A stretch of 64,000 nucleotides of DNA, from the NCBI RefSeq assembly GCF_020097815.1, contig NZ_CP083664.1, forward strand, positions 186,001-250,000, read 5' to 3'. The number at the start of each line of letters is the position of its first letter. The first letter of the stretch is position 1. Below, piece after piece: positions 11,744 through 59,599 of the stretch. The position numbers and the translations under genes are program-made. The notes beneath the pieces are model-generated. The model was not told the DNA's origin. It was given only the letters and a program-made list of their open reading frames with translations, and searched no databases. This stretch comes from Haloprofundus salinisoli. Its GTDB lineage: Archaea; Halobacteriota; Halobacteria; Halobacteriales; Haloferacaceae.

Positions 11744-12067
11744 ACCTACGAGTAGTTCAGGAATCGTTATTACAGCAGTGGCTCCGGTGGCCCACAGTGA
11801 GTCGGCAGGTACAAAATCTCCGGCCGACGTGAACCTTTTGGACGCAAACTCAAGTGGAGGGACGCTGTCGATACGGTATCTACAGATGAACCAAACAGCC
11901 AAGCGCCGTTCGGTTGTCGGCTGTCGACCCTCCTTCGACCATCGGTCGTGGGATTCGATACCGACTCCCCCGAAGCCGAACCCCCCCTCGCTCCTCCGAG
12001 AGGACGTCCAGACGAGCGTATCGGGATATGTGATAGCTGACTCGAACGTTCTGCGGGTATCGTCTCG
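11744..12067. other. Gene-free divergent intergenic region
   Basis: About 320 nt between the minus-strand lipoprotein and the plus-strand membrane protein. It must hold both promoters. A run of Cs around 11975-11990 and TATA-like ATATGTGATAG near 12025 are visible. No coding frame looks real. Confidence 0.4.
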
Positions 12068-13141
12068 ATGAGCGACGACACCTCAGACAACATCGACACG
12101 CAGGAGGAAGACCCGAACTTCAACCTCACCGTCGGTGAAGACATCAGCACCGCGAACACGATGCGACAGCGCAGCGGCGAGACGAAAATCAAGATGTGGG
12201 TGGTGCTCGAGGGTTCCCGCCTCGTCGTCACGGGCTTGCTCGCCATGTTGATCTTCAGTGTCTTCGTCTTCGGCGGGACGCAGTTCTATCGGCACTTCCT
12301 CACGGACGTACAGAACCAGGACACCCTTGAGACGCTGTTCTCGACGATGATAAGCGCCATCATCACCGGCGTCACGCTGGTATTGACGATCACGCAGATC
12401 GTCATCTCCCAAGAGAACGGCCCGCTCGGTGACCAGCGGAGGCGCATGAGCGACACGATGGACTTCCGCGAGTACACCGAAGAGATAATCGGTTCGCCAA
12501 CGCCCGCGGACCCGTCGGCGTTCCTTCGCGCGCTCGTCCTCCAGAGCAAAGCGTACGCCGAGCAACTCCGCAAATCGGTCTCCGGTACCGACAACGACGA
12601 ACTCCGCGAGGAAGTCGACGAGTTCACGAACAGCCTCATCGGCAACGCCGACGCCGCAGCAGACAAACTCGAAGGCCGCACGTTTGGCACCTACACTGTC
12701 GTTTCGGCGGCGCTGGACTACAACTACGCCTGGAAAATATTCCAGGTCGAGCGTCTCGCAGACGACTACGTCGACACGCTCTCGCCGGAGACGATGTCGA
12801 TTCTCGACGAACTGAAGACCTCGTTGACGATGTTCGGTCCCGCTCGCGAACACATCAAGACGCTGTACTTCGAGTGGGAACTCATCAGCCTCTCGCAGAA
12901 CATCCTCTATCTCTCGGTGCCGGCGCTCATCGTCGCCGGATTCACTACGACGTATCTGGGCGGAAACGCGCTCCCCGGCGGAACGCTGGGCGTTCCGAAC
13001 CTCATCTGGTGGACGTCGGCCGCGTTTGCCATCACGTCGATGCCGTTCCTCCTGCTCATCTCGTACATCGCCCGCATCGCGACAATCGCAAAGCGGACAC
13101 TCGCCATCGGTCCGTTCATCCTCCGGGACTCACAGCGCTGA
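12068..13141 (+). CDS. Uncharacterised four-helix membrane protein, paralogue of 56734-57864
   Basis: 357 residues. An acidic N-terminal tail (1-40), two membrane helices at ~48-68 and ~85-115 (MISAIITGVTLVLTITQIVIS), a long soluble helical region (~120-275), and two more helices near the C terminus ending in SYIARIATIAKRTLAIGPF. The protein at 56734-57864 shares this layout, including ITVNQLTVSQ at the second helix and RIATIAKRT at the end. No known catalytic motif. Conserved in haloarchaea by my reading, function unknown. Confidence 0.85.
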   Translation: MSDDTSDNIDTQEEDPNFNLTVGEDISTANTMRQRSGETKIKMWVVLEGSRLVVTGLLAMLIFSVFVFGGTQFYRHFLTDVQNQDTLETLFSTMISAIITGVTLVLTITQIVISQENGPLGDQRRRMSDTMDFREYTEEIIGSPTPADPSAFLRALVLQSKAYAEQLRKSVSGTDNDELREEVDEFTNSLIGNADAAADKLEGRTFGTYTVVSAALDYNYAWKIFQVERLADDYVDTLSPETMSILDELKTSLTMFGPAREHIKTLYFEWELISLSQNILYLSVPALIVAGFTTTYLGGNALPGGTLGVPNLIWWTSAAFAITSMPFLLLISYIARIATIAKRTLAIGPFILRDSQR

Positions 13142-46024: not shown

Positions 46025-46192
46025 CACACGCGAGCGTGGGGTCTATCCACCTCAGACGAACGACTCGAACATACAAAGTCGGCGGTGTCGCAGAGCGATT
46101 GGAGAGATAGCGCTACTGTCCGTCTGACGCTACCTTCTCTTCGATGGATTTCTTCGTGAACGTTGATTGGGCCGTCTTTCGTACATTCTCCG

Positions 46193-47440
46193 ATGAGTTC
46201 AGCTAATCCCCAAGGGCTGCAAGCGTTCCCCGACGAACTCGCCGGACGTGAGTCGTGGCTCGATCCGTTCGAGTGGTACCGAGAGATGCGAGACGACGCG
46301 CCCGTTCGTTACGACACGTCCCGAGGGTCGTGGGACGTGTTCCGCTACGACGACGTGAAACGGATTCTCGACGACGACGAGACGTTCTCGGTCGATCCCG
46401 AACGGGCGAACGACTACGTCGAACCCGAAAACGAGGGCGAGGGTTTGATTCTTCAGACGATGCTGTTCGAGGATCCGCCCCGGCACGACGCCCTCCGCGG
46501 CGTCGTCGACGACCCGTTCCGACCGCGCGCGATTCGGCAACTCGAACCGCGGATACGGGAGTTGACCGCGGAGATTCTGGACGAGGTGCTCGACGAAGGG
46601 AGCTCCGCCGGCGTCGAGGGCGAGATGGACATCGTCGACGACCTCGCCTATCCGCTTCCGGTGATGGTCATCGCCGAACTACTCGGTGTTCCGGCTGAGA
46701 AACGCGACCAGTTCAAGACGTGGTCGGATACGCTGGTCGAGGCAGCGAGCGACGACACCGACGCCCAGGCGTACGTCGACGAACAGCGACAGGTCCAGAT
46801 GGAGATGGCATGGTACTTCCTCGAACTCATCGAGGACCGCCGCGAGAACCCGCGCGACGACCTCATTTCGCAAATCGTCACCGCCGAACTCGACGACGGG
46901 TCACATCTCTCCCGCGAGGAGGCGCTCGGAACGTGTATCCTCCTGCTCGTCGCCGGTAACATCACCACGACAAATCTCGTCACGAACGCGATTCGGTGCT
47001 TCGACGAGGCCGAACAGTTCGACGCCGTCCGCGGCGACGACCGGACGCTCTCGACGGCTATCGAGGAGGTACTTCGGTACCGGTCGCCGGTGCAGGCGAT
47101 GACGCGGATCGCTACGAGAGACGTCGCGGTTCAGGACGCGACGATCGAAGCGGGAGACCGAATCGTCGTCTGGCTCGGGTCGGGCAACCGCGACGAACGC
47201 ACGTTCGACGACGCGGGAACGTTCGTCCCCGACCGAGCGCCGAACCAGCATCTCGGCTTCGGCCACGGGACGCACTACTGTCTCGGTGCGCCGTTAGCTC
47301 GTCTCGAAGCAAAAGTCGTCCTCTCGGAGCTGCTGGACCGAGTCGCCGAACTCCGAGTTGCCGAGTCAGAGCTGTCGCCGACGCGGAGTTCGTTTATCTA
47401 CGGCGTCGAGTCGCTGCCGGTCGAGTTCGAGAGGCGGTAA
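46193..47440 (+). CDS. Cytochrome P450 (bacterial soluble type)
   Basis: 415 residues. I helix LLLVAGNITTTNLV, ExxR in EEVLRYRSP, and haem loop LGFGHGTHYCLGAPLARLEA with Cys ligand. The length and haem-loop style match soluble CYP105/CYP107-like enzymes, unlike the longer P450 at 9628. No ferredoxin or reductase gene adjoins. Start ATG 46193 gives MSSANPQGL; an ATG 30 nt upstream is possible. Substrate unknown. Confidence 0.92.
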   Translation: MSSANPQGLQAFPDELAGRESWLDPFEWYREMRDDAPVRYDTSRGSWDVFRYDDVKRILDDDETFSVDPERANDYVEPENEGEGLILQTMLFEDPPRHDALRGVVDDPFRPRAIRQLEPRIRELTAEILDEVLDEGSSAGVEGEMDIVDDLAYPLPVMVIAELLGVPAEKRDQFKTWSDTLVEAASDDTDAQAYVDEQRQVQMEMAWYFLELIEDRRENPRDDLISQIVTAELDDGSHLSREEALGTCILLLVAGNITTTNLVTNAIRCFDEAEQFDAVRGDDRTLSTAIEEVLRYRSPVQAMTRIATRDVAVQDATIEAGDRIVVWLGSGNRDERTFDDAGTFVPDRAPNQHLGFGHGTHYCLGAPLARLEAKVVLSELLDRVAELRVAESELSPTRSSFIYGVESLPVEFERR

Positions 47441-47586: not shown

Positions 47587-47904
47587 TCACCGAAAGGACT
47601 CCTTGTGTTCACGGTAGAGGACGAGCGTGAACAGCGCGAACGGGAGGAGGCCAACGACTGCGAGCGCCAGTCCGACCTGAAGAAGCAGCGGGAGCGTCGT
47701 GCTCGACACTAGATACAGCACCACTATGGCACCTGTGGCGATGAAGGAGACGACGCTCCCGATTGCGAGTCCGAAACTCAGTTTTCGCGTCCGCCACGCC
47801 AGGTTCTCCGAGCGGCGGAGCATCTTGATGAGGACGGCAATCGGTGGAATCGTCAACGCGACCAACTGCAGCAGTCCGAGTGCAATGTCTTGAACCAGCG
47901 TCAT
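47587..47904 (-). CDS. Small membrane protein coupled to a beta-propeller gene
   Basis: 105 residues with three hydrophobic helices (~5-25, 43-66, 72-97) and short charged loops. No family recognised. Its ATG overlaps the stop of the upstream propeller gene (ATGA), so the two are made together. It may serve as a membrane partner for the propeller. Confidence 0.75.
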   Translation of the reverse strand: MTLVQDIALGLLQLVALTIPPIAVLIKMLRRSENLAWRTRKLSFGLAIGSVVSFIATGAIVVLYLVSSTTLPLLLQVGLALAVVGLLPFALFTLVLYREHKESFR

Positions 47905-48977
47905 CGACCGTCCCCGGATCGCTCGACGATTGCGCCGCCGTTTCCGACGGCGACGTCCACGTCACCGAGCGCGACCGAGCGAAGCTTCGACTCCACCGGC
48001 GACGAGCGTTCGCTCCACCCTTCGTCCGCTTGTCGGTGGTAAATTGTGCCCCCACCGCCGACGGCGACGGCGCTCTCGTCCCGACAGTCGATTGCGAACA
48101 GCGCCGACTCGCCGACGGCGACGGGCGTCCATCCGCCGCAGAGACGGTCGTAACGGTAGACGAGTCCGCCACCGCCGCTGACGAGTAACGCCCGTTCGGA
48201 GGCGTAGAGGTCGTGGAAGTTTACCTGTGCGTTCTCGATACCGATGTCGGACCACCCACCGTCGCTTTGCCCGTCGGCAGTTCGCTCGAAGACGTTGCCG
48301 CTCGTGTCGATGGCGTACGTGACGCCGCCGCCGAACGCCAGGGCAGGAATCGTCGACCCGCTACCGGGCTTGACCACCTCGCCGAACGACGGACATCCGT
48401 CCTCGTCGATGGTCGCCGAAAGCACTTCGCCCGACCCGTTGGCGACGAGCAGTCGCTCGTTCCCGCCTATTCCGCCGACGGCGATGGCTTCCCACGTGCT
48501 CGTCTTCCCGCCGGGACCGGAGTAATCGTGTTTCTCGCCGGTTTGGGTGTCGTACATCCCGAGCGCGCCGCTGGACCCGGCGAACCAGACTCGCTTTCCG
48601 TCGTCGGTCACGTCTACGTCTGTCAGTTTGTTCCGCTTCGTCGCCGGTCCCGCGGGGACGACGACGGTCCACGTCCCGTCGTCGCGACGACGGAGTACCT
48701 TCCCGCCGGTACCGACGGCGAACGGCCCCACGCTCGTCTGAACGACGCCGGTGAGCGTCTTCGCCACCGGACTCTCGACGGCGGTCCACTCACCACTGGT
48801 CGTCTCGGTCCTGTCGTTCGATGAGTTCTCCGTCCACCGCGACTTATCAGTGTGGGGCTGGGACACCGACCCGTCACCGCCGTCGGCGGTCGACTGTCGG
48901 GTTGTCTGTTCGGATTTTTTCGTGGCTGTACTCGTCATATTTCGGACTCTCGAGAGCAGTGTCTCTATCGGATTCAT
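47901..48977 (-). CDS. Ycf48-like beta-propeller protein, copy A
   Basis: 358 residues. A Ser/Thr/Lys-rich N terminus (~1-60) without an obvious signal peptide, then about six blades with repeats such as VDVTDDGKRVWFAGSSGALG and AIDCRDESAVAVGGGGTIY. The blade pattern resembles Ycf48/HCF136 assembly factors. It is a clear paralogue of 54763-55737, which does have a Tat lipoprotein signal. The start may be ATG 48938 (MTSTATKKSEQ). Suggested role: assembly of a membrane complex, from context only. Confidence 0.8.
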   Translation of the reverse strand: MNPIETLLSRVRNMTSTATKKSEQTTRQSTADGGDGSVSQPHTDKSRWTENSSNDRTETTSGEWTAVESPVAKTLTGVVQTSVGPFAVGTGGKVLRRRDDGTWTVVVPAGPATKRNKLTDVDVTDDGKRVWFAGSSGALGMYDTQTGEKHDYSGPGGKTSTWEAIAVGGIGGNERLLVANGSGEVLSATIDEDGCPSFGEVVKPGSGSTIPALAFGGGVTYAIDTSGNVFERTADGQSDGGWSDIGIENAQVNFHDLYASERALLVSGGGGLVYRYDRLCGGWTPVAVGESALFAIDCRDESAVAVGGGGTIYHRQADEGWSERSSPVESKLRSVALGDVDVAVGNGGAIVERSGDGR

Positions 48978-49159
48978 CGGTTTAGTTTTGAAACTTCGTT
49001 CGGCAAGCTATGCGTTCGAGACGGTTCCGGACCGCCCACTTTCGACGATTCGAGAGGCTGTCGGCGACGACTGGGGAGTTTCCGGAGGTTCGGACCCGTT
49101 TCCAATCGGGCAGCCGATTTCGAGTCGCACCGTCCGGCGTCATCTGGTTGGTTTGCCGG

Positions 49160-49489
49160 TCAAACCGCGAGTCTGACGCCTGCGAAGAGGACGACGGTGA
49201 GCGCCCAACTCAACCCGCCGACGAGGGCGGCGACGTGCCAGTCGGGGTCGGTCACTCGCTTCACGACCACGACCCACACCGCGGGTGAGAGAAGCGGCCC
49301 GACGAGCGGAATCCAGCCGAAAAGCAGGCTGACCAAGCCGCCGAGGAGAATCCCGAGCACCGCGGTGAGGGCCGCATCTTCGTACGTGGACTGAAACGAC
49401 CCCGGCCGGAGGTGCAGGCTGATGTGAATGATCGGCGCGACGACGAGGAAACTCGCGACGAAGCCGACGACGACGTTCAATAGAAACAC
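49160..49489 (-). CDS. Hypothetical four-helix membrane protein
   Basis: 109 residues from a GTG start, almost entirely hydrophobic: MFLLNVVVGFVASFLVVAPI, a loop with RPGSFQSTYEDAA, then LLGGLVSLLFGWIPLVGPLL and a last helix. No known family. It sits between the propeller gene and a PadR regulator, all on the same strand. Confidence 0.7.
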   Translation of the reverse strand: MFLLNVVVGFVASFLVVAPIIHISLHLRPGSFQSTYEDAALTAVLGILLGGLVSLLFGWIPLVGPLLSPAVWVVVVKRVTDPDWHVAALVGGLSWALTVVLFAGVRLAV

Positions 49490-49571
49490 GCGTCACGACT
49501 CCCATTCCGACCATCGCCGTCGTAATTTTCGCCGTCGCGACTGGCGCTTCGCTCTATCATTCCGCAGCGTC

Positions 49572-49946
49572 TCATACGACGAAAAACGGGTGCGGTTCCC
49601 CTACAGTGTCCACACACGCGTCGGTCCACGCGGCGTACGCACGAAGGCCGTCACTCGACGTTTCGGTGACGGCGTAGGCGTTCGTCCGTCCGTCTATCGG
49701 GCGCTTCGCTAGCAGGTTCGCGTCGACGAGCGTCCGAAGGTTCTGGTAGACGCGTCCGTTCGTCACTTCGCCCTCGTAAAGTTCGTCGAGCGCCTCCGAG
49801 ATGGCGACGCCTGTTGACGCGGTCTCGTCGAGTGCGGCGACGATACAGAGCGTATCGCGCTGAAAGCCGGTCAGCGGCGTGATGACCGCCGCCGCATCCG
49901 GTGGTACTACACACGGTTCGTTCGTCTGTCGGTTGTTCCGTCGCAT
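49572..49946 (-). CDS. PadR-family transcriptional regulator
   Basis: 124 residues. LTGFQRDTLCIVAALDETAS, EGEVTNGRVYQNLRTLVDAN and DGRTNAYAVTETSSDGLRAY match the PadR winged helix and parallel the regulator at 39424-39702 almost motif by motif. It lies immediately downstream of the oxidase subunit I gene (125-nt gap), so it may control the copper/oxidase block. That is inference. Confidence 0.85.
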   Translation of the reverse strand: MRRNNRQTNEPCVVPPDAAAVITPLTGFQRDTLCIVAALDETASTGVAISEALDELYEGEVTNGRVYQNLRTLVDANLLAKRPIDGRTNAYAVTETSSDGLRAYAAWTDACVDTVGEPHPFFVV

Positions 49947-50070
49947 CGAATTTCACTGGCGGTCGAAACCGCCACGGTCGCGCCCGGGCGTCGAACCCGG
50001 GAGGTGGCCTCTGATACCAAACGCGACTGCCTCGGGGTCGGCCCGTAAGGTCGTGCTCCCATCGCCCCGC

Positions 50071-51621
50071 TCATCGGTCCGCACCCGGTTCCCATTCGGG
50101 AGTTCGTTGCCCAGTTCGACCGAGTTCCCACGGGTCGGTCGTGTCGACCGGGTCACCCGCCACTGCCGAGGCGAGGGCGTTCCAGACGAACACCAGTTGC
50201 CCGACGCCGAGGACGTACGCCCCGAGAGTAGCGACGTAGTGCAAGGGCGCGAACTCGGGTGGATACGCGGCGACGCGCCGGGGAAGTCCGCCCATCCCGA
50301 CGAGGAGAAAGGGGAGAAACGTCGCCGGAACGCCGACCGCAGAGAGATAAAAGTGCGCGCGTGCGAGTCCGCGGTCGAACCACCGCCCGGTCAGAAGCGG
50401 GAACCAGTAGTAGCCTCCGGCGAAGAGGCCGAAGACGATGGTTCCCACGAGGAGAAAATGGAAGTGGCCGACGACGTAGTAGGTGTCGTGGAGCACGAGG
50501 TCGACGGGAATCGAGGCGAGGAACACGCCCGTCACGCCCCCGATAACGAAGTTCCCGACGGCGGCGACGCAGAACAACATTGGTGCAGTCAGTCGAATCG
50601 CCCCGTTCCAGAGCGTCGCGATCCAGTTGAACGTCTTGACGGCGCTCGGAGCGGCGATAGCGAGCGTGACCGCCATGAAGGACGCGCGGAGGCGCGGGTC
50701 GAGGCCGGTGGCGAACATGTGGTGCGCCCAGACGCCGAACGAGAGGACCCCGATGGCGAGCGTCGAGTAGACCACCGCGCGAAAGCCGAACAGTTTACGT
50801 CCCGCGAATTGCGGGAGGACGTGGCTCACGATTCCCATCGCCGGGAGGACGAGGATGTACACTTCGGGGTGGCCGAAGAACCAGAAGAGATGTTGCCAGA
50901 GCACCGGACCGGCGTCGACGGCGAAAAACGTCGTTCCGAAGTTGCGGTCGGCGAGGAGCATCACCATCGCACTCCCGAGAACGGGAAACGCGAACAGCAC
51001 CAACCCTGCCGTCGTCAGCATCGTCCACGAGAAGATGTCGAGCGACGCCCACGACACCGAATCGTCGCGGACAACGGCGATCGTCACGACGAGATTGACG
51101 CTGCTGGCGATGGTGCTCACGCCGCCGAGATGCAGTCCCAGGAGGACGAGGTCGACGCCGTGACCGGCCTGCTGTGTTGCGAGCGGCGCGTAGAACGTCC
51201 ATCCCGTCGCCGGTGGGGCGAGGTCAGGAATTCCGAGCAGTTGGCCGACGATACCGGCACGAGCGAGCAGTAACGCGGGCGGCAGCAGCCAGAATGCGAC
51301 CGCGTTGACGCGCGGGAACGCCATGTCATCGGCGCGGACGAGCAGCGGGACGGCGTAGTTCGCCAGTCCAAGCGCGACGGGCGTCGCGAAGAAGAACAGC
51401 ATTGTCAGCCCGTGCGTCGTGAAGAACGCGTTGTAGGTCGCGGCGTCCCAGACGGCGAGGCCCGGCGAGAGTAACTCCGTCCGAACTGCCATCGCGTCGG
51501 TCGCACCCCATACTCCAGCGACCGCGCCGAAGACGACGTACATCACCCCGATGTCGCGGTGGTCGAGCGTCGTCAGCCACCGAACGACCGGCGTCTTCGG
51601 AACGGAACCGGGTCGGCTCAT
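50071..51621 (-). CDS. coxA: Haem-copper oxidase subunit I (orphan)
   Basis: 516 residues, twelve membrane helices. Haem ligands are His70 (TTHGLTM) and the GHFHF pair His386/His388; CuB ligands are His251 with Tyr255 (GHPEVY) and His300-His301 (AHHMF). K-channel Lys329 (SAVKTFNW) and Glu253 mark an A-type oxygen reductase, not a NO reductase. It reduces O2 at the membrane. The start ATG overlaps the preceding MFS-like gene (ATGA). No subunit II (CuA) or III gene is within the window, so a partner must be elsewhere or the enzyme differs in electron entry. Confidence 0.93.
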   Translation of the reverse strand: MSRPGSVPKTPVVRWLTTLDHRDIGVMYVVFGAVAGVWGATDAMAVRTELLSPGLAVWDAATYNAFFTTHGLTMLFFFATPVALGLANYAVPLLVRADDMAFPRVNAVAFWLLPPALLLARAGIVGQLLGIPDLAPPATGWTFYAPLATQQAGHGVDLVLLGLHLGGVSTIASSVNLVVTIAVVRDDSVSWASLDIFSWTMLTTAGLVLFAFPVLGSAMVMLLADRNFGTTFFAVDAGPVLWQHLFWFFGHPEVYILVLPAMGIVSHVLPQFAGRKLFGFRAVVYSTLAIGVLSFGVWAHHMFATGLDPRLRASFMAVTLAIAAPSAVKTFNWIATLWNGAIRLTAPMLFCVAAVGNFVIGGVTGVFLASIPVDLVLHDTYYVVGHFHFLLVGTIVFGLFAGGYYWFPLLTGRWFDRGLARAHFYLSAVGVPATFLPFLLVGMGGLPRRVAAYPPEFAPLHYVATLGAYVLGVGQLVFVWNALASAVAGDPVDTTDPWELGRTGQRTPEWEPGADR

Positions 51622-52940
51622 CCGTCGTCCTCCGCCCACGTCGGCGTCCTCCCGACGAGGAGACGCAGGTACTCGCGGAGCGCGAGACCGCCGACGGCTG
51701 TCGCAATGCTGAACGCGAGCACGGGGCTGTACCAGAAGAGCACACCGCCGACGACGGGCGCGGGAACGACGACGAGGTCGCGGGCTGCCCGATACTCGGC
51801 GGCGGCCGTCGCGGACCGTGTGCCGACCGCGGCGTCGACGAGCGCACGACGGGCCTCGGTACCGACTCGCCGGAAGCCGAACCCGAGGAACAACAGCGAC
51901 AGTCCCGGAAGACTCGCCGGTGCGGTGACCAACAATACTGGAAACAGCGCTGTCAGCGCCACCGAGACGGCGGCGACACGTTCCCGACCGACCGTCCGCG
52001 TTGCCCATCCGGCGACGCGCCGACCGAGCGTTTCGCCGAGCAGTTCGAGACATAGGAGGACGCCGAATACCGCGTCAGGGGACAGCGTCGACCCGAACAC
52101 CGTCACCGCCGGTGCGTGAAACGAGACGACGGTGACGACGACGAAGACGACGACGAGCGCGAGCGAGAGTCGCCGAAGGAGGTCACCGACGAGCACCGCA
52201 CGGCGTCGGCCGGTCGTCGTCTGGAGCGGAACCAACGAGAGCTGTATCGGCGGTGACGACGATCGGCCGTCCGGCTGTCCGTTATCGGTTTCGCCGGCTC
52301 TTCCGAAGCTCCCGATTTCGCCACTCGCCGCCAGCGCCAGCGCCGCGACGCCGACGGTCGCGGCGAGAAGCGAGAGTATCTGTACGCCGGGGCGCACCGC
52401 CGCTGCAGTCATCACTGCAGTCGTTACCACCAGCGCACCGAACGTCCAGACCGTCCGATCGACGTTGCCATCGTCCAGTCGCGACCCCGTGGTCGCGATG
52501 CCGACCGCGCCGCCGAGCGTCGCCGGGAGCGCATATCGGACGCTTATCAGACCGAGACCGACGAAGACGAGCACCCATCCCGGTATCGCCGACCGAGATG
52601 CGACGAGCGGGACGACCGACCAGAGACCGACGCCGACGACCACGAACGCCAGTGAGCGTCTCAACCCGACGACTACCGATGGCCGCCCCCGACTTCGAAA
52701 CAGAAGTGCGAGCGCGATACCGAGGGTGCCGTAGAGGCCGATAACCGTCGGTCCGGCACCGAACGACCGGAGGAACTCGGGGACGAACCGACCGACCGCG
52801 TAGGTGAGTCCCTCTAATCCTGCGACGGCGACGGCGAACGCTGCTGGTGTGTTCGTCTGTCTACTGTCACAGTCGCGCGCGGCTCCGACGATATCCCGAA
52901 CCGCCGACCGAATCTCGTCGAGCGCCGATTTCTCGCTCAT
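51618..52940 (-). CDS. MFS-like membrane protein in the oxidase cluster
   Basis: 440 residues with about twelve hydrophobic segments and a Ser/Gly/Pro-rich middle loop (~215-245). Loop motifs such as RSRGRPSVVVGLRRS and GRRVAGWATRTVGRERVA fit MFS carriers. Overlaps on both sides (ATGA with the permease and with coxA) place it firmly in the operon. Candidate copper or metabolite carrier feeding the oxidase; function not provable from sequence. Confidence 0.82.
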   Translation of the reverse strand: MSEKSALDEIRSAVRDIVGAARDCDSRQTNTPAAFAVAVAGLEGLTYAVGRFVPEFLRSFGAGPTVIGLYGTLGIALALLFRSRGRPSVVVGLRRSLAFVVVGVGLWSVVPLVASRSAIPGWVLVFVGLGLISVRYALPATLGGAVGIATTGSRLDDGNVDRTVWTFGALVVTTAVMTAAAVRPGVQILSLLAATVGVAALALAASGEIGSFGRAGETDNGQPDGRSSSPPIQLSLVPLQTTTGRRRAVLVGDLLRRLSLALVVVFVVVTVVSFHAPAVTVFGSTLSPDAVFGVLLCLELLGETLGRRVAGWATRTVGRERVAAVSVALTALFPVLLVTAPASLPGLSLLFLGFGFRRVGTEARRALVDAAVGTRSATAAAEYRAARDLVVVPAPVVGGVLFWYSPVLAFSIATAVGGLALREYLRLLVGRTPTWAEDDG

Positions 52941-54379
52941 TCGTCACCCTCCGCGGTTCCTGCCGTTTCGTCGGTCGCCTCCGCGTTCGGTCGGCTCCGC
53001 CACCGCCGAATTGCTCGGAGCCGGGCGCGTCGAACCGTCTCCCGGGAGCGTCCGCCAACGTCGTAAAGCATCTCTCCGAGCGCGTCGAGGACGTTGGCGA
53101 CGACGCCGACGGCTGTTCCGAGCACGGCCACCGTGCCGACGATCCATTCGGCGAGGCGCAGGAATTTCGCCGCGCCCGTCACGAGTCGCCGCTCGATGCC
53201 GTCACGACCGAACGTCACGTACACCTGCGCGAGAAACACCGGCGTCAACGCGAGGTTCAGCACCGTCGTGTACTCGCCCGAGAGCGTTCCATCGACGGTT
53301 CCCTGCGGCGGAATCAGCCCAATGCCGTCGAAGACGACGTGGACGACCGCGCCCGCGACGACTGCGGAGAGAAACAGTGACAGCGAGAGCGCGGCGGCGA
53401 GTCGCCAGCCGTAGTACTTGCGATAGAGGTTCACGAGCGGCGGGATGAGCAGATCACCGTAGATGAACGCTAGAATCCCGCCGAACGGCAACCCGTTCGT
53501 CCAGAGGACGAGCGCGAACGGGACGTTCCCGACCGAACACATGAACGTGAGAACCCCGATGACGACGCCGAGAACGACGTTGACGACGACGGCCTCGAAA
53601 CTCCCGTCGGCGCTGAACAGCGCCGTCCACCACGCCGTCGGAACGAACGCGCCGACGAGACCCGCGACGACGAAGCCGACGGCGATGTCGTCCCATAGCA
53701 TCTCCCAGTCTTTCGTCGTGGCGCTCGCGGCGCTCTTCCATCCGGCACGAGAGAGGACGCGCTCGCCAAGCGAGCTATCGCCTGCGACATCGGTACGCGC
53801 CTCGTAGGCGGTGAGACAGCCCTCGCAGCAGAAGACCGCATCGGGAAACGCGTCGACGTACACCGCATCGTCGTCGCCGGCGTCCATACCGCAGGCGGCG
53901 CACTCGTCGTCGTCGTGTGCTCGGACGCGTTCGCGCGCGTCCTCGAACCACGATTGGGGGACGACGTACCGGAACGCGGCGACCATCACGGCGACGGCGA
54001 CGAGGCCGCCGACGTACTCGCCGAGGACGAACTGCCAGCCGAGAAGCACCCATATCACGAGGCCGAGTTCGAAGACGAGGTCGGTGCTCGCGAACATGAA
54101 CGCAGCGAGCGCGGCGACGCCGGATGCGCCTTTCTTGAACAGTGTGCGAGCGGTGCCGACGGCCGAGTACGAGCAACTCGACGCCGCCGCCCCGAAGGCG
54201 GTGCCGAGGGCAGCCTCTCTCCAGCCGTCGTCGCCGAGTATCTCGGTCATCCGCTCTTCGCTGACGAACGCCTCGACGGCCCCCGAGAGGGTGAAGCCGA
54301 GGACGAGCGCCCACCACGTCTCCCAGGTCATTCCGACGATGAGTTCTGCTGCTCGAACGGTCTGGTCTCCTATCGACAT
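52937..54379 (-). CDS. UPF0718/ArsP-type permease with inserted TRASH-like metal site
   Basis: 480 residues. Two halves of a DUF318-type permease carry ASSCSYSAVG (~67-76) and CSVGNVPFALVLW. Between them (~155-195) lies a cytosolic TRASH-like zinc/copper motif: ECAACGMDAG...FCCEGCLTAYEA with Cys160, 163, 184, 185 and 188. A metal-binding module in the loop suggests copper or similar ion export or delivery. Coupled by ATGA to the MFS-like gene. The metal identity is inference. Confidence 0.87.
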   Translation of the reverse strand: MSIGDQTVRAAELIVGMTWETWWALVLGFTLSGAVEAFVSEERMTEILGDDGWREAALGTAFGAAASSCSYSAVGTARTLFKKGASGVAALAAFMFASTDLVFELGLVIWVLLGWQFVLGEYVGGLVAVAVMVAAFRYVVPQSWFEDARERVRAHDDDECAACGMDAGDDDAVYVDAFPDAVFCCEGCLTAYEARTDVAGDSSLGERVLSRAGWKSAASATTKDWEMLWDDIAVGFVVAGLVGAFVPTAWWTALFSADGSFEAVVVNVVLGVVIGVLTFMCSVGNVPFALVLWTNGLPFGGILAFIYGDLLIPPLVNLYRKYYGWRLAAALSLSLFLSAVVAGAVVHVVFDGIGLIPPQGTVDGTLSGEYTTVLNLALTPVFLAQVYVTFGRDGIERRLVTGAAKFLRLAEWIVGTVAVLGTAVGVVANVLDALGEMLYDVGGRSRETVRRARLRAIRRWRSRPNAEATDETAGTAEGDE

Positions 54380-54487
54380 GAGTTGGCTCTGTTGTATCGC
54401 ATGGATTCGGACGAAAATGGTGGAGGGAACGTCCGGACGACGCCGGACACGTCAGCGGGAATCGGGTACCATTCTATTGTGTGTGCC

Positions 54488-54691
54488 TCAGTTTGCGACG
54501 CCGTACCCGGCATCGGTGATGGCCCTGTGGACGTACTCCACCGAGTCGTCGGTGCAGCGAACGTGGACTTTCCCCGTTTCCGCGTTCGCGGTGACTTCCC
54601 GGACGCCGATGACGTTTGAGACGTTCCGGGTGACGATTCGTTCGCAGCCGTCGCAGTGCATGCCAATTACCTCGAGTGTGTATCCTCGCAT
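54488..54691 (-). CDS. HMA-domain metallochaperone
   Basis: 67 residues: one heavy-metal-associated domain with VIGMHCDGCERIVTRNV (CxxC metal site) in a ferredoxin-like fold. A soluble copper chaperone that could feed the permease encoded 108 nt downstream. The start is set at ATG 54691 (MRGYTLEV); the longer frame would add a hydrophobic leader. AT-rich promoter-like sequence lies upstream (54720-54765). Confidence 0.9.
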   Translation of the reverse strand: MRGYTLEVIGMHCDGCERIVTRNVSNVIGVREVTANAETGKVHVRCTDDSVEYVHRAITDAGYGVAN

Positions 54692-54762
54692 CGCAGTCGA
54701 TACGAGGAATGGCGCGGCAATAAATAAGGAGTAATGCAAATATAATTCAACTTTATTCGAAT

Positions 54763-55737
54763 CTAACTAAACAGTTCGAGGACCATGCCGTTCGCGCCGA
54801 CGGCGACGTCTGCGTAGGACGCAGAGCCGAGCGCACAGCCGTGGAGCGTGTTCGAGGTCGGCGACTCCTGCGACCGCCACTGGCTGGCGTCGAGCGATTG
54901 GATGGCCCCACCGACACCGACGGCGAGGCCGCGCTCGGACCGTCGGTCGATAGCGTGCAGTGCCGACTTCCCGGTCGTAACCGAGAGCCAGTTGTGGCCG
55001 TTGTAGGCGTAGATTTCGCCTTCTTCGGTGGTCACGTCGACGAGCGCGTCGTCGACGACTGAGAGGTCGGTGAGCGAGACGCCAGCGCCGCGAATACCGA
55101 CGGTCCGCCAGCCGTCTCCGGTCGTCCGGTAGACGCCGCCGCCGGTGTCGGCGACGAAGCCGGTACCGTGGCGGACGTCGATGGCAGCGACGCTCTCGCC
55201 GCCGCTCGGCTTAGTGACCGCGCCCCAACTGACGGTCCCACCGCCGTACGTTCCGGGCAGGAGTTCGCCGGAACCGTTGACGGCGTACACTGACTCGTTA
55301 CCCGACCGACCGTCGACGGCGACGCCCTCCCACGAACTCGTCTTCCCGCTCGGCGCGGAGTAGTCCGTAATCCGCCCCGAGACGACGTTCAGGCGGCCGA
55401 TAGCGCCGCTGTCACCGGCGAACCAGACCGCGTTCCCGTCGTCGGTCACGTCAGCGGCGACGAGACCGTTCGACGCGCCGCCTGGCCCATTTTCGGTAAT
55501 CGCCTGCCACTCGCTCTCCCTGCGGCCGACGACGACACCGCCTTCACCGACTGCGACCGGCCCGTCGAGCGTCATCACGACGTCGTACAGCGCGCCGTCG
55601 GTAGGGGCGTTCACCTCGTTCCACCCGTGACTGGGTCGCGTGCCGCCGAGGCAGCCAGCCATCGTCGCGAGCACGGCTGCGCCCGTCGAAATCGCCGCGC
55701 GTCGGGTTATCGCTCGGTTCGACTGCTCCCCGCTCAT
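54763..55737 (-). CDS. Ycf48-like beta-propeller Tat lipoprotein, copy B
   Basis: 324 residues. Tat signal TRRAAISTGAAVLATMAGC with lipobox (Cys ~29), then propeller blades such as AADVTDDGNAVWFAGDSGAIG and AVGVGGAIQSLD that align by eye with the propeller at 47901-48977. Ycf48-type propellers chaperone assembly of large membrane complexes, so a surface assembly factor for the oxidase is plausible. The start overlaps the DUF2182 stop (ATGA). Confidence 0.85.
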   Translation of the reverse strand: MSGEQSNRAITRRAAISTGAAVLATMAGCLGGTRPSHGWNEVNAPTDGALYDVVMTLDGPVAVGEGGVVVGRRESEWQAITENGPGGASNGLVAADVTDDGNAVWFAGDSGAIGRLNVVSGRITDYSAPSGKTSSWEGVAVDGRSGNESVYAVNGSGELLPGTYGGGTVSWGAVTKPSGGESVAAIDVRHGTGFVADTGGGVYRTTGDGWRTVGIRGAGVSLTDLSVVDDALVDVTTEEGEIYAYNGHNWLSVTTGKSALHAIDRRSERGLAVGVGGAIQSLDASQWRSQESPTSNTLHGCALGSASYADVAVGANGMVLELFS

Positions 55738-56543
55738 ACGAAGAGTGGCAGGCCGACGAACAGGACGAGCATTCCCGCGACTCCGGCGGTGACGCCCGTC
55801 GCGATGGCGATATCTTCACCCCAGACCGGGAGGCGCTCGATGGTGACGACCCCGGTGAGGACGGCCATCCAGAAGAAGTTCATCGACCCGATGGCGACCA
55901 TGAGCGCGAAGATAGGCCACGTACAGCGGACGCATTTTATCCCGTGACGGAGACCCCGACGGACACCCGTGCCGAGCATTGCCGCGGGGGCGTCGACGGC
56001 AGTGCAGCAGTCGCGGAGCGAGCGGTGTTTGAACGCCGTGAGCTGGTAGAGGCCGACGAACCCGAGCATCACGCCGTAGACGAGTCGGCCGTTTCCGGTC
56101 ACGGCGGCGTGGATGCCGACGAGGCTGTCGAGAGCCAACGGGACCGCACCGGTGACCGTCCAGACGAAGCTATATGCGAGGAGGAATTCTCCGACGGCGA
56201 GACTTTTCCGGGCCGGAGTACCGTCGAGTTGCTGGACGTACCGGCGAACGAACGGCGTCATCGCGGGGTACATCATCGCCGACATCATCACGCCCCACAT
56301 CAGGAGGTAGGCGACGGCACCGGAGACTCCGTTCGCAGTGCCGATGGCTTCGGGAACGCCGGGTGCCGACATCGGTCCGGGCGCGCCCACCATCGGCATC
56401 GGGAGCCAGCCGTTCAGCAGGACGGTCCATAGGACGGCCGTCGTGGCGAGCATCGCCGTCGTAGTTCGGGGGAACCCACCGGCGGATACCGCGGAAATCT
56501 GTTCGATACGACGCTTCATTGTCTGTCGGAAAGTCTCTGACAT
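55734..56543 (-). CDS. DUF2182 metal-binding integral membrane protein
   Basis: 269 residues with about seven helices. Met/His-rich signature segments MWGVMMSAMMYPAMTPFVRR, GIKCVRCTWPIFALMVAIG and SMNFFWMAV identify DUF2182. Family members are predicted to bind a metal, probably copper, inside the membrane. It heads the gene series that ends in coxA. ATG 56543 (MSETFRQTM) was chosen, since the frame upstream runs through Arg-rich shadow sequence. Confidence 0.88.
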   Translation of the reverse strand: MSETFRQTMKRRIEQISAVSAGGFPRTTTAMLATTAVLWTVLLNGWLPMPMVGAPGPMSAPGVPEAIGTANGVSGAVAYLLMWGVMMSAMMYPAMTPFVRRYVQQLDGTPARKSLAVGEFLLAYSFVWTVTGAVPLALDSLVGIHAAVTGNGRLVYGVMLGFVGLYQLTAFKHRSLRDCCTAVDAPAAMLGTGVRRGLRHGIKCVRCTWPIFALMVAIGSMNFFWMAVLTGVVTIERLPVWGEDIAIATGVTAGVAGMLVLFVGLPLFV

Positions 56544-56733
56544 TGCTGGTCTCTGAGAACTGGGTGCCCCGATTTCGGGGCGGTTTCGGAGAACTGTTCG
56601 ATTCGGGGGCTGTTCGAGCGTCTTCGTGCAAATGCGATGCGGTGGTGGTTCTCGCACGCCGCGCGCTCCGGTGGTGGCAGCGAGTGCCAACACGCTGCGT
56701 TTCGGTCCGTCACGGTCCGGTAGGCTACCGGAT

Positions 56734-57864
56734 TCACGGTTCCTCCGGCCGGTTCGTCGCCATCTTCGGCGACTCTCGCCGCGGCGTGAACGCGCCGGGT
56801 GCGGCCGTCCGCTTCGCGATCGTGGCGATGCGGAGGACGAACGAGAGCAGAATGACGAACGGAATCGTCTCCAGCGTGATTGCGAGACTCACGAGTCCGT
56901 CGAGAAGCACGGGGGCGTTCGGCAGCGGTTCGCCGTTAGCGAACACCATGATGACGTACATTGCGACGAAGAACGCGCCGACGCCGGAGTAGCCGATGAG
57001 CCGCGAGAGGTTCGACAGTTCCTGCTGGATGTAGATGGCTTTGAAGTACTGTCTGAGCACGTCGAGCGAGAGCAGTAGTTCCTCCAGTTCGTCTAGGAGG
57101 TCCGTCGCTCTGCCCGGCAGTCGGTCGTAGTGTTCGGCCCGAATCCGCCGGATCCGATTTATCGACTCCGAGTACGGGTCACCCATCATCGGCAGCAACA
57201 CGACGATGAGTCGGAGATGACTCCCGTTGAGTCGCGTCCGAATCTCGTCGGTCTCTCTGTCGACGGTGGCGACGAGTTCGTCGATCGAATCGACCAGTTC
57301 TGGATCGCCGACGCGTTCGACGACGGTTCGGAGTTCGACCGTCCGCGTCACAACGCTCTCGACCACGTCGCTCAGAAACAGCGCCGGTTCCGTCGGCGGG
57401 GGGCCGTCGCCCGCCTGTAGTTCAGCCATCTCCGAACGGAGAGTGCGAACGCCCCGTATCTGCTCGCGCAGGCCCTTCGGCGACTCCATCAACTGCGATA
57501 CGGTGAGCTGATTCACCGTGATAACGATGGGGACGAACGAGAACAGCCCGGAGATGAACGCGCTGAACATGTTGGTCACGAACCCGCTCTGCCCGACGCC
57601 GAAGACGTCGGTGCGCGCGAGGACAAAGGTCGCGAGGAAGACGACGGCGGTGATGCCGCCGACGATAGCCCAGCGGTCGCCTTCGAGCAGGAACCACTGT
57701 TTGAACGCCCGACGGCGGTCGTCGTCGGTCACCAGTGCGACGCCGACGGCCAACCCTGCGACGACCACCTGACCGAATCGCATGAGGAGAGCGAGGGCGC
57801 CGTATGCGACCGTCGCGGCATCTCTCAGTCGCTCGCCCGCCTCTTCCTCTTCGCTGTCACTCAT
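56734..57864 (-). CDS. Uncharacterised membrane protein, paralogue of 12068-13141
   Basis: 376 residues. Acidic N terminus, an amphipathic first helix, membrane helices at ~68-88 and ~100-130 (MFSAFISGLFSFVPIVITVN), a long soluble helical region (~135-300) and two C-terminal helices ending in SFVLRIATIAKRTAAPGAF. It shares the QLTVSQ/QIVISQ and RIATIAKRT landmarks with the 12-kb protein. Overlaps the DUF389 gene by ATGA. Function unknown; the order resembles large mechanosensitive or ion-channel-like proteins only loosely. Confidence 0.83.
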   Translation of the reverse strand: MSDSEEEEAGERLRDAATVAYGALALLMRFGQVVVAGLAVGVALVTDDDRRRAFKQWFLLEGDRWAIVGGITAVVFLATFVLARTDVFGVGQSGFVTNMFSAFISGLFSFVPIVITVNQLTVSQLMESPKGLREQIRGVRTLRSEMAELQAGDGPPPTEPALFLSDVVESVVTRTVELRTVVERVGDPELVDSIDELVATVDRETDEIRTRLNGSHLRLIVVLLPMMGDPYSESINRIRRIRAEHYDRLPGRATDLLDELEELLLSLDVLRQYFKAIYIQQELSNLSRLIGYSGVGAFFVAMYVIMVFANGEPLPNAPVLLDGLVSLAITLETIPFVILLSFVLRIATIAKRTAAPGAFTPRRESPKMATNRPEEP

Positions 57865-58910
57865 CGGAGCACCTCCGCCAGACGCTCGACCGAAGTCGTG
57901 TCGACGACGTCCAAGAACGCGACGAGCGCGACGATACTCACTCCGAGCACCGCGACGCGGACGAGCATCTGCGTTCGCGTCTTTCGGAGGTGTGCCCAGC
58001 TATCGGGATGATAGCCGAGGTACCACAGCGTGAGTATCGACGCGAGACAGACCGAGAGAACGTTGATGAGGACGACGGCCGACGCGCCGAAAACCGCCGC
58101 CGGCCGACCCCACGCGATACCGACTCCCGCGACGCCGACCGGCGGGACCACCGCCGCGGCGATCATCACGCCAACGAGGTCGAGCGTGCCGCTCGTCGAG
58201 ATGCTGAGAGCGCCCGCGATACCTGCGCTGAATGCGATGACCAGTAAGAGCACCTGTGGTGCGGTGTGGCCGCCGACTCGAACGAGTTCGGTGACCTCGA
58301 ACGTTCGGGTGACGAAGGTCGTCTCGCGGACAAGCGCGGCGAACAAAACCGCGCTCACGAGTGCGGTAACGCCGCCGACGGCGTGGTAGTGGAGGCTCCG
58401 ACCGAACAGCGACTGGTCGTCGAGCACTGTCCCGACGCTCGTCGCCATGAGCGGTCCGATGATGGGGGCGATGACCATCGCGCCGACGAGCACCGTCGCC
58501 GACCCCATCAACACGCCGGCGGTCGCGACGAACGCACTGATCGCCGTCATCACCGCGTACGTTCCGAGGTCCGGGATGAGGTCGGCCGCTTTCGAATCGA
58601 GCTCGCTTCGAGAGATACCGCCGTGTTCGAGGCCCTCGTACCGGCCGTACGCCCGTTTGCCGTCTTCGGTCGTCGCGACGACCGCCTCGGGTGCGACGAC
58701 GACCGTGTACATCTCGTCGGCGTCGAGGGTTTCGAGACGGCTCTGAACGTGCTCGACCGTCTGCGTGGGGATCGGCACCGAAACGATGCCCGGCGCGCCG
58801 GGGCTGTCGGTGTGATCGGTGACGACGTAGTCGAGACCGTCCTCTTCGAGGAGTGCAGCGACTTCGTGGTGCGTCGACTCCGAGAACGTCATCACTTCGA
58901 GCAATCGCAT
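57861..58910 (-). CDS. DUF389 (TIGR00341) membrane protein
   Basis: About 349 residues from ATG 58910. The N-terminal regulatory domain (~1-110) begins MRLLEVMTFSES, followed by hydrophobic helices with VLMGSATVLVGAMVIAPIIG and MIAAAVVPPVGVAGVGIAWG, the two landmark repeats of the family. An ATG at 58946 (MPREMPDM) is also possible. Function unproven; some members are linked to mechano- or ion-related roles. Translationally coupled to the next gene, and 119 nt after the zinc-ribbon gene. Confidence 0.86.
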   Translation of the reverse strand: MRLLEVMTFSESTHHEVAALLEEDGLDYVVTDHTDSPGAPGIVSVPIPTQTVEHVQSRLETLDADEMYTVVVAPEAVVATTEDGKRAYGRYEGLEHGGISRSELDSKAADLIPDLGTYAVMTAISAFVATAGVLMGSATVLVGAMVIAPIIGPLMATSVGTVLDDQSLFGRSLHYHAVGGVTALVSAVLFAALVRETTFVTRTFEVTELVRVGGHTAPQVLLLVIAFSAGIAGALSISTSGTLDLVGVMIAAAVVPPVGVAGVGIAWGRPAAVFGASAVVLINVLSVCLASILTLWYLGYHPDSWAHLRKTRTQMLVRVAVLGVSIVALVAFLDVVDTTSVERLAEVLR

Positions 58911-59029
58911 GTCTTCGTGCATCATATCGGGCATTTCGCGGGGCATGGCTGGGAGGGTCGGTTGCGGACGTGAGCGACAGCGGGGCACACCTATCGCTCT
59001 GAACGGACGGATACGGCTTCGAAAACAGT

Positions 59030-59599
59030 TCAAAACGTGAGTAGGTCGTCGACTCCCGGACCATCGTCGTCGGGGTACGTCGCCGCGTATAGGTTCGCGA
59101 CGAGCGTCCGAATCTCATCGAGGCGGTCGGCGTTGTCGTCGGTGCAGTCGACGACGCACGTAGCGAATATCTCTCCCGACCCGCAGTCGGTGTAACGGAG
59201 TCGTCCGCCGCAACGGGGACAGCGGAGGTCGACGTGTGCGAGCATCCACGTCGCGTCGTGGCCCTTCCGGTCGAGTCGAGCGTGCAGTGCGAACCAGACG
59301 ATATCGTCCCACTCCTGCCGACCGGTGGCCGTCGTCTTCAGGCGCCGTAGTGCGAGCGTCGCCGTCCGGTACAGCGCCGTATCGGCGTCGAATTGACGCT
59401 CGTGGCTCCGCCGGAAGTACCGGAATAGCGCCGTCCGCGACGACCGCTGCGCCCCGTTGGTGAGTTCGCCGACGGTTCCGGCCCGGCGAGACGCGCTATC
59501 GTCTTCAACGGCGCGTGCCGCACGGCCACAGTGGTCGTAGTGTCGATTCTTCGAGAGCGGTGCGCCGCTCTTCGGGCAGAATGCGTTGTCTCCTCTCAT
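59030..59599 (-). CDS. Zinc-ribbon hypothetical protein
   Basis: 189 residues. An N-terminal zinc ribbon, FCPKSGAPLSKNRHYDHCG, a basic middle helical region (FRYFRRSHERQF) and a second Cys cluster DLRCPRCGGRLRYTDC with further Cys in FATCVVDC. The type is common in haloarchaea, probably nucleic-acid or protein binding. No known enzyme family. It lies between DUF389 and the origin-protein gene, same strand. Confidence 0.75.
   Translation of the reverse strand: MRGDNAFCPKSGAPLSKNRHYDHCGRAARAVEDDSASRRAGTVGELTNGAQRSSRTALFRYFRRSHERQFDADTALYRTATLALRRLKTTATGRQEWDDIVWFALHARLDRKGHDATWMLAHVDLRCPRCGGRLRYTDCGSGEIFATCVVDCTDDNADRLDEIRTLVANLYAATYPDDDGPGVDDLLTF

Follow-up and report, generated by a model that had tools for sequence, protein, structure and literature searches.

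The six open reading frames at positions 50071-56543 singled out in a preliminary description are all present on the minus strand and exactly where they had been placed. They form the middle of a larger cluster of 12-13 genes that extends over approximately 47587-59599 of the window, which is the whole stretch of 64,000 nucleotides of Haloprofundus salinisoli analysed here (Table 1). The replicon carrying the window measures 356 kb and the genome 3.4 Mb; judged by the cluster locus, the closest named relative is Haloprofundus marisrubri. The original extent was too narrow, since the cluster also takes in DUF389 and TMup on its upstream side and, on the downstream side, PadR, TM109, the second propeller and TM105. 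The close packing described for the six genes, mostly with overlaps of 1-4 nt, was borne out at three junctions by 4-nt ATGA overlaps (PpoB2/PROP, PERM/MFS and MFS/CoxA), but the HMA gene is flanked by gaps of 71 and 108 nt. TM105 and the second propeller gene also overlap by 4 nt. Beside the cluster and on the opposite strand, a by-eye reading of positions 46163-47440 gave a cytochrome P450-like gene, which is also present in a Haloprofundus relative (L036).

Table 1 Genes of the cluster listed from its upstream end (positions in the window; loci, presence by tblastn)
Product	Position	Strand	Basis	Loci
ZnR5, Zn-ribbon protein (cluster's upstream end)	59030..59599	-		36/40
DUF389/TIGR00341 membrane protein	57861..58910 (start codon uncertain)	-	PF04087, 104 bits; TIGR00341 above cut-off	37/40
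TMup, all-helical membrane protein	56734..57864	-		39/40
PpoB2-family (DUF2182) integral-membrane copper chaperone	55734..56543	-	PF09948, 148 bits (gathering score 28.7)	26/40
PROP, exported beta-propeller-like (YCF48-related) protein	54763..55737	-		40/40
HMA-domain CxxC metallochaperone (MHCDGC)	54488..54691	-	PF00403, 49.5 bits, CopZ-like	9/40
PERM, ArsP_1/SO_0444-like permease with inserted TRASH-like Cys5 site	52937..54379	-	PF03773, 230 bits	40/40
MFS-fold carrier, fast-evolving	51618..52940	-	predicted structure	40/40
CoxA, divergent A-type haem-copper oxidase subunit I	50071..51621	-	PF00115, 472 bits	40/40
PadR-family regulator	49572..49946	-	PF03551	37/40
TM109, small membrane protein	49160..49489	-		10/40
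Second propeller-like protein	47901..48977	-	PF23366, 29 bits	33/40
TM105, small membrane protein	47587..47904	-		34/40

Several products could be placed only partly in known families. ZnR5 had no Pfam family above cut-off. TMup gave an AF2 model with a pLDDT of 79 and no Foldseek match at E<=0.001; the PGAP label "cbb3-type cytochrome c oxidase subunit I" carried by the TMup of a Natrinema zhouii plasmid (L126, 11689-13164) had no NCBIfam support and was discarded. The protein upstream of CoxA had no match in Pfam or, by sequence, in PDB, and was assigned to the MFS fold from its AF2 model (pLDDT 83; Foldseek MFS E ~1e-6). The exported propeller starts with an RR motif and a lipobox (RRAAISTGAAVLATMAGC and equivalents in most orthologues) and is for this reason probably a lipid-anchored surface protein. 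The N-termini of the second propeller have no signal peptide and it is probably cytosolic. The Natrinema orthologue of the exported propeller has been named YCF48-related by NCBI, and no Ycf48 model appeared among the Pfam and NCBIfam matches of the window protein. Like Ycf48, a photosystem II assembly factor, the cluster protein would be a lipid-anchored accessory protein of propeller type; unlike it, it has no significant match to a Ycf48 model and its partner is not a photosystem, so that a Ycf48-like assembly role is proposed by analogy only.

Conservation across the Halobacteriales

The permease was used as bait in 394 Halobacteriales genomes, and 62 neighbourhoods, a subset of the permease matches plus two met while gathering CoxA genes, were mapped by tblastn. 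The gene frequencies obtained in this way are not a census because the loci fetched were mostly the higher-scoring permease matches. The PROP-PERM-MFS-CoxA core was complete in 40 further genomes from several families, and the cluster order was found in named genera including Haloprofundus, Halosimplex, Halomarina, Haladaptatus, Natrinema, Natrialba and Halobiforma. Conservation of the gene order was one of the checks named in the preliminary description, and its persistence in 40 other genomes rules out a chance array specific to one strain. The most constant members among the 40 loci were the four core genes together with TMup, DUF389 and PadR, and PpoB2 and HMA were among the least fixed in position. 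Some Natrialbaceae have the stretch running from the Zn-ribbon gene through the exported propeller in the opposite orientation relative to the permease-MFS-CoxA block, and eight clusters have in addition a cation antiporter with TrkA_C. On a plasmid of Halorussus aquaticus (L128, 7869-15204) a TMup homologue is found near CoxA, a cation antiporter and a TrkA_C gene with neither permease nor propellers, possibly another layout of the same theme.

This pattern might reflect an oxidase complex of unusual make-up, in which TMup, DUF389, the MFS-like protein, TM105 and the propellers would be structural or regulatory partners of CoxA, the metal genes would be add-ons, and O2 would be consumed with little or altered proton pumping. 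The identity of the most constant genes, the antiporter of some clusters and the Halorussus aquaticus arrangement all speak for such a complex, which we hold to be possible if rather unlikely; the strict tie of the permease Cys insert and of PpoB2 to the cluster (see below) points instead to metal handling.

The CoxA subfamily and the question of subunit II

The CoxA of the window has the PF00115 domain with its six His ligands (haem a, haem a3 and CuB), the cross-linked Tyr and the K-channel Lys by which an A-type subunit I is recognised, confirming the complete ligand set described previously. It also keeps the D-channel Asp position, the HPEVY Glu and the Mg-site Asp, with both Mg-site residues intact. 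In being full-length and having all the haem, CuB, Tyr and D- and K-channel residues it resembles the A-type (aa3) CoxA/CtaD. It differs from them in scoring below the cut-off of the NCBIfam CtaD_CoxA equivalog TIGR02891 (612 vs 671 bits), and the cluster CoxA as a whole differ in forming their own group in the tree, in the relaxed Mg-site Asp and D-channel of many of them and in the conserved genes around them, which do not encode oxidase subunits. In a tree of 50 sequences, a single branch with support 100/96 separated 29 cluster CoxA from 21 other haloarchaeal CoxA, and none of 500 shuffles gave a value as low for this split. On sequence grounds the cluster CoxA is a distinct A-type subfamily, and we consider both the gene cluster and its tie to this subfamily solid. 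Three genomes of the same genus lack the cluster permease, and two of them (G084 and G145) carry other CoxA genes, so that CoxA in general can do without the set.

No substitution was seen in any of the 29 cluster CoxA at the His ligands of haem and CuB, at the cross-linked Tyr, at Lys and Ser of the K channel or at the two Arg. The Mg-site Asp has become Gly in 24 of the 29, whereas 19 of the 21 other haloarchaeal CoxA have Asp. An acidic residue occupies the D-channel Asp position in 24/29, and the HPEVY Glu, also of the D channel, is kept in 23 and lost in six. An intact active site and K channel combined with losses at the Mg site and the D channel are again consistent with the complex of unusual make-up and its altered pumping.

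As previously described, no subunit II or III is encoded in the window cluster, and a CuA motif scan of the window found no hidden COX2. The preliminary description had read the set as a self-contained route of copper loading into an oxidase encoded as a single subunit; in such a reading CoxA would work without subunit II and take electrons from another donor. The frequent change of the Mg-site Asp, located at the interface of subunits I and II, would fit this idea. However, the genome contains four COX1, one COX2 and one COX3 (G000:C1 270-271 kb and COX1 loci L004 and L076-L079: four CoxA against one CoxB and one CoxC), and none of the four COX1 genes adjoins the sole COX2, making an orphan CoxA ordinary in this genome. 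The single CoxB gene adjoins haem A synthesis genes in the form of a CtaA-CtaB fusion (read from the sequence, without a family search), and subunit II may be common to several of the CoxA. Furthermore, a subunit II gene occurs within or alongside the cluster in three relatives, each time with CuA-type C-x3-C-x3-H-x2-M ligands: L069 (2095-2973), Halobiforma nitratireducens (L114, 12201-13046; also L144) and Saliphagus infecundisoli (L115, ~12054-12737), these being Natrialbaceae-type loci; tblastn found none at the remaining cluster loci. One of the three, L069, has an altered Mg site, and the window CoxA retains both Mg-site residues. Given that orphan CoxA genes are the rule here and that three clusters encode COX2, the single-subunit oxidase is improbable and was rejected as the best reading.

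Metal-handling proteins and the role proposed for the cluster

The Cys5 insert reported in the permease (CAACGM...FCCEGC in the window) was found to be confined to cluster copies among the permeases fetched. Inserts of the type CxxCGM...FCCxGC are present in the window protein and in 35 of the 38 other cluster permeases listed, the exceptions (L052, L055 and L069) having altered forms, and no Cys insert was seen in the permeases of 22 fetched non-cluster loci. The nearest characterised permease relative, although distantly alike, is SO_0444, a proposed Cu/Zn efflux protein (PMC3219624). The cluster permease is likewise of the ArsP_1 type and matches the SO_0444 model NF033936 partially (61.7 bits, under the 300-bit cut-off), and differs in its extra Cys5 insert and its oxidase context. 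Its place in an SO_0444-like efflux group could suggest that permease, HMA, PpoB2 and PadR make up a copper/zinc efflux and stress module fixed by chance beside a CoxA gene. We consider this very improbable since CoxA accompanies the permease in 40/40 loci, and the closely related permeases fetched from outside the cluster have neither the Cys insert nor CoxA.

PpoB2 was found in 83 of the 394 genomes, namely in 41/41 with the cluster vs 42/353 of the others (Fisher p = 9e-33, counting genomes as independent and ignoring kinship). These others were only partly screened for variant clusters, and a rearranged cluster turned up in one of the 42 (G232). The gene lies within 12 kb of the permease in 29 of the 41 cluster genomes, and the window copy is the sole PpoB2 of its genome. 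A Pfam search of this genome detected its positive controls and no Cox11, Sco1 or Caa3_CtaG. In Marinomonas PpoB2 transfers copper specifically to tyrosinase (PMC2855505). The PpoB1-PpoB2 tyrosinase operon of Marinomonas mediterranea resembles our cluster in that a COG5486/DUF2182 membrane copper chaperone is encoded beside a copper enzyme, but here the partner is an oxidase subunit I and many more genes take part. At four loci where PpoB2 lies apart from the cluster (L152, L158, L159 and L160), it comes after an HMA gene, which hints that the two form a portable pair.

The MFS-fold carrier invites comparison with CcoA, the MFS copper importer of cbb3 oxidase biogenesis, since it is encoded beside a CuB oxidase subunit. 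CcoA requires MxxxM and HxxxM motifs (PMC5829832). Unlike CcoA, the window protein lacks both and has few Met, His or Cys; among its orthologues MxxxM was matched in 2/26 and HxxxM in 0/26. Import of copper in the manner of CcoA was accordingly rejected.

We give about even credence to the reading that this is a conserved haloarchaeal cluster serving a distinct A-type CoxA subfamily with its own metal-supply and assembly proteins. Metal handling is suggested by how strictly both the Cys5 insert and PpoB2 go with the cluster, and delivery of copper to the cluster CoxA is the inference we prefer. In this scheme Cu(I) would be handled at the membrane by the HMA protein, which is cytosolic, and by the Cys5 permease, and PpoB2 would hand copper to CoxA within the membrane, filling CuB in place of the Cox11/CtaG route absent from this genome. 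The lipid-anchored propeller would steady the nascent CoxA at the outer face. CoxA itself would be an accessory O2 reductase, most likely working with a subunit II made elsewhere, from the single CoxB gene beside the haem A synthesis genes. The copper theme of the preliminary description is supported by the Cys insert, by PpoB2 and by the absence of Cox11, CtaG and Sco1 from the genome, but not by the MFS protein, and most core genes have no known metal role. Several observations count against copper supply: HMA is present at only 9/40 loci and PpoB2 is not always near the permease, whose nearest characterised relative is a proposed efflux protein; the MFS protein is poor in Met and His and without CcoA motifs; the cluster is dispensable for CoxA in general; and DUF389, TMup, the two propellers, TM105 and PadR are without known metal role.

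The statement that no system of this composition had been described agrees with the literature that we searched (DUF2182, Ycf48-like archaeal proteins and haloarchaeal oxidase clusters, subscription papers being mostly outside the search), in which no account of the cluster was found. Copper would probably be supplied to the oxidase by a route new to the literature. The stronger version, a new CuB-maturation pathway in which PpoB2, the Cys5 permease and the lipoprotein propeller replace Cox11/Sco for a dedicated archaeal A-type oxidase that is losing Mg-site and D-channel residues and hence pumps protons differently, seems to us unlikely as a whole. The cluster provides, in haloarchaea that are in culture, named and deletable candidates for the CuB copper route in organisms without Cox11. 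The CoxA subfamily, with an intact active site and relaxed Mg-site and D-channel residues, would be useful to test the requirements of proton pumping, and very conserved membrane families such as TMup, TM105 and DUF389 gain a functional context from the cluster.
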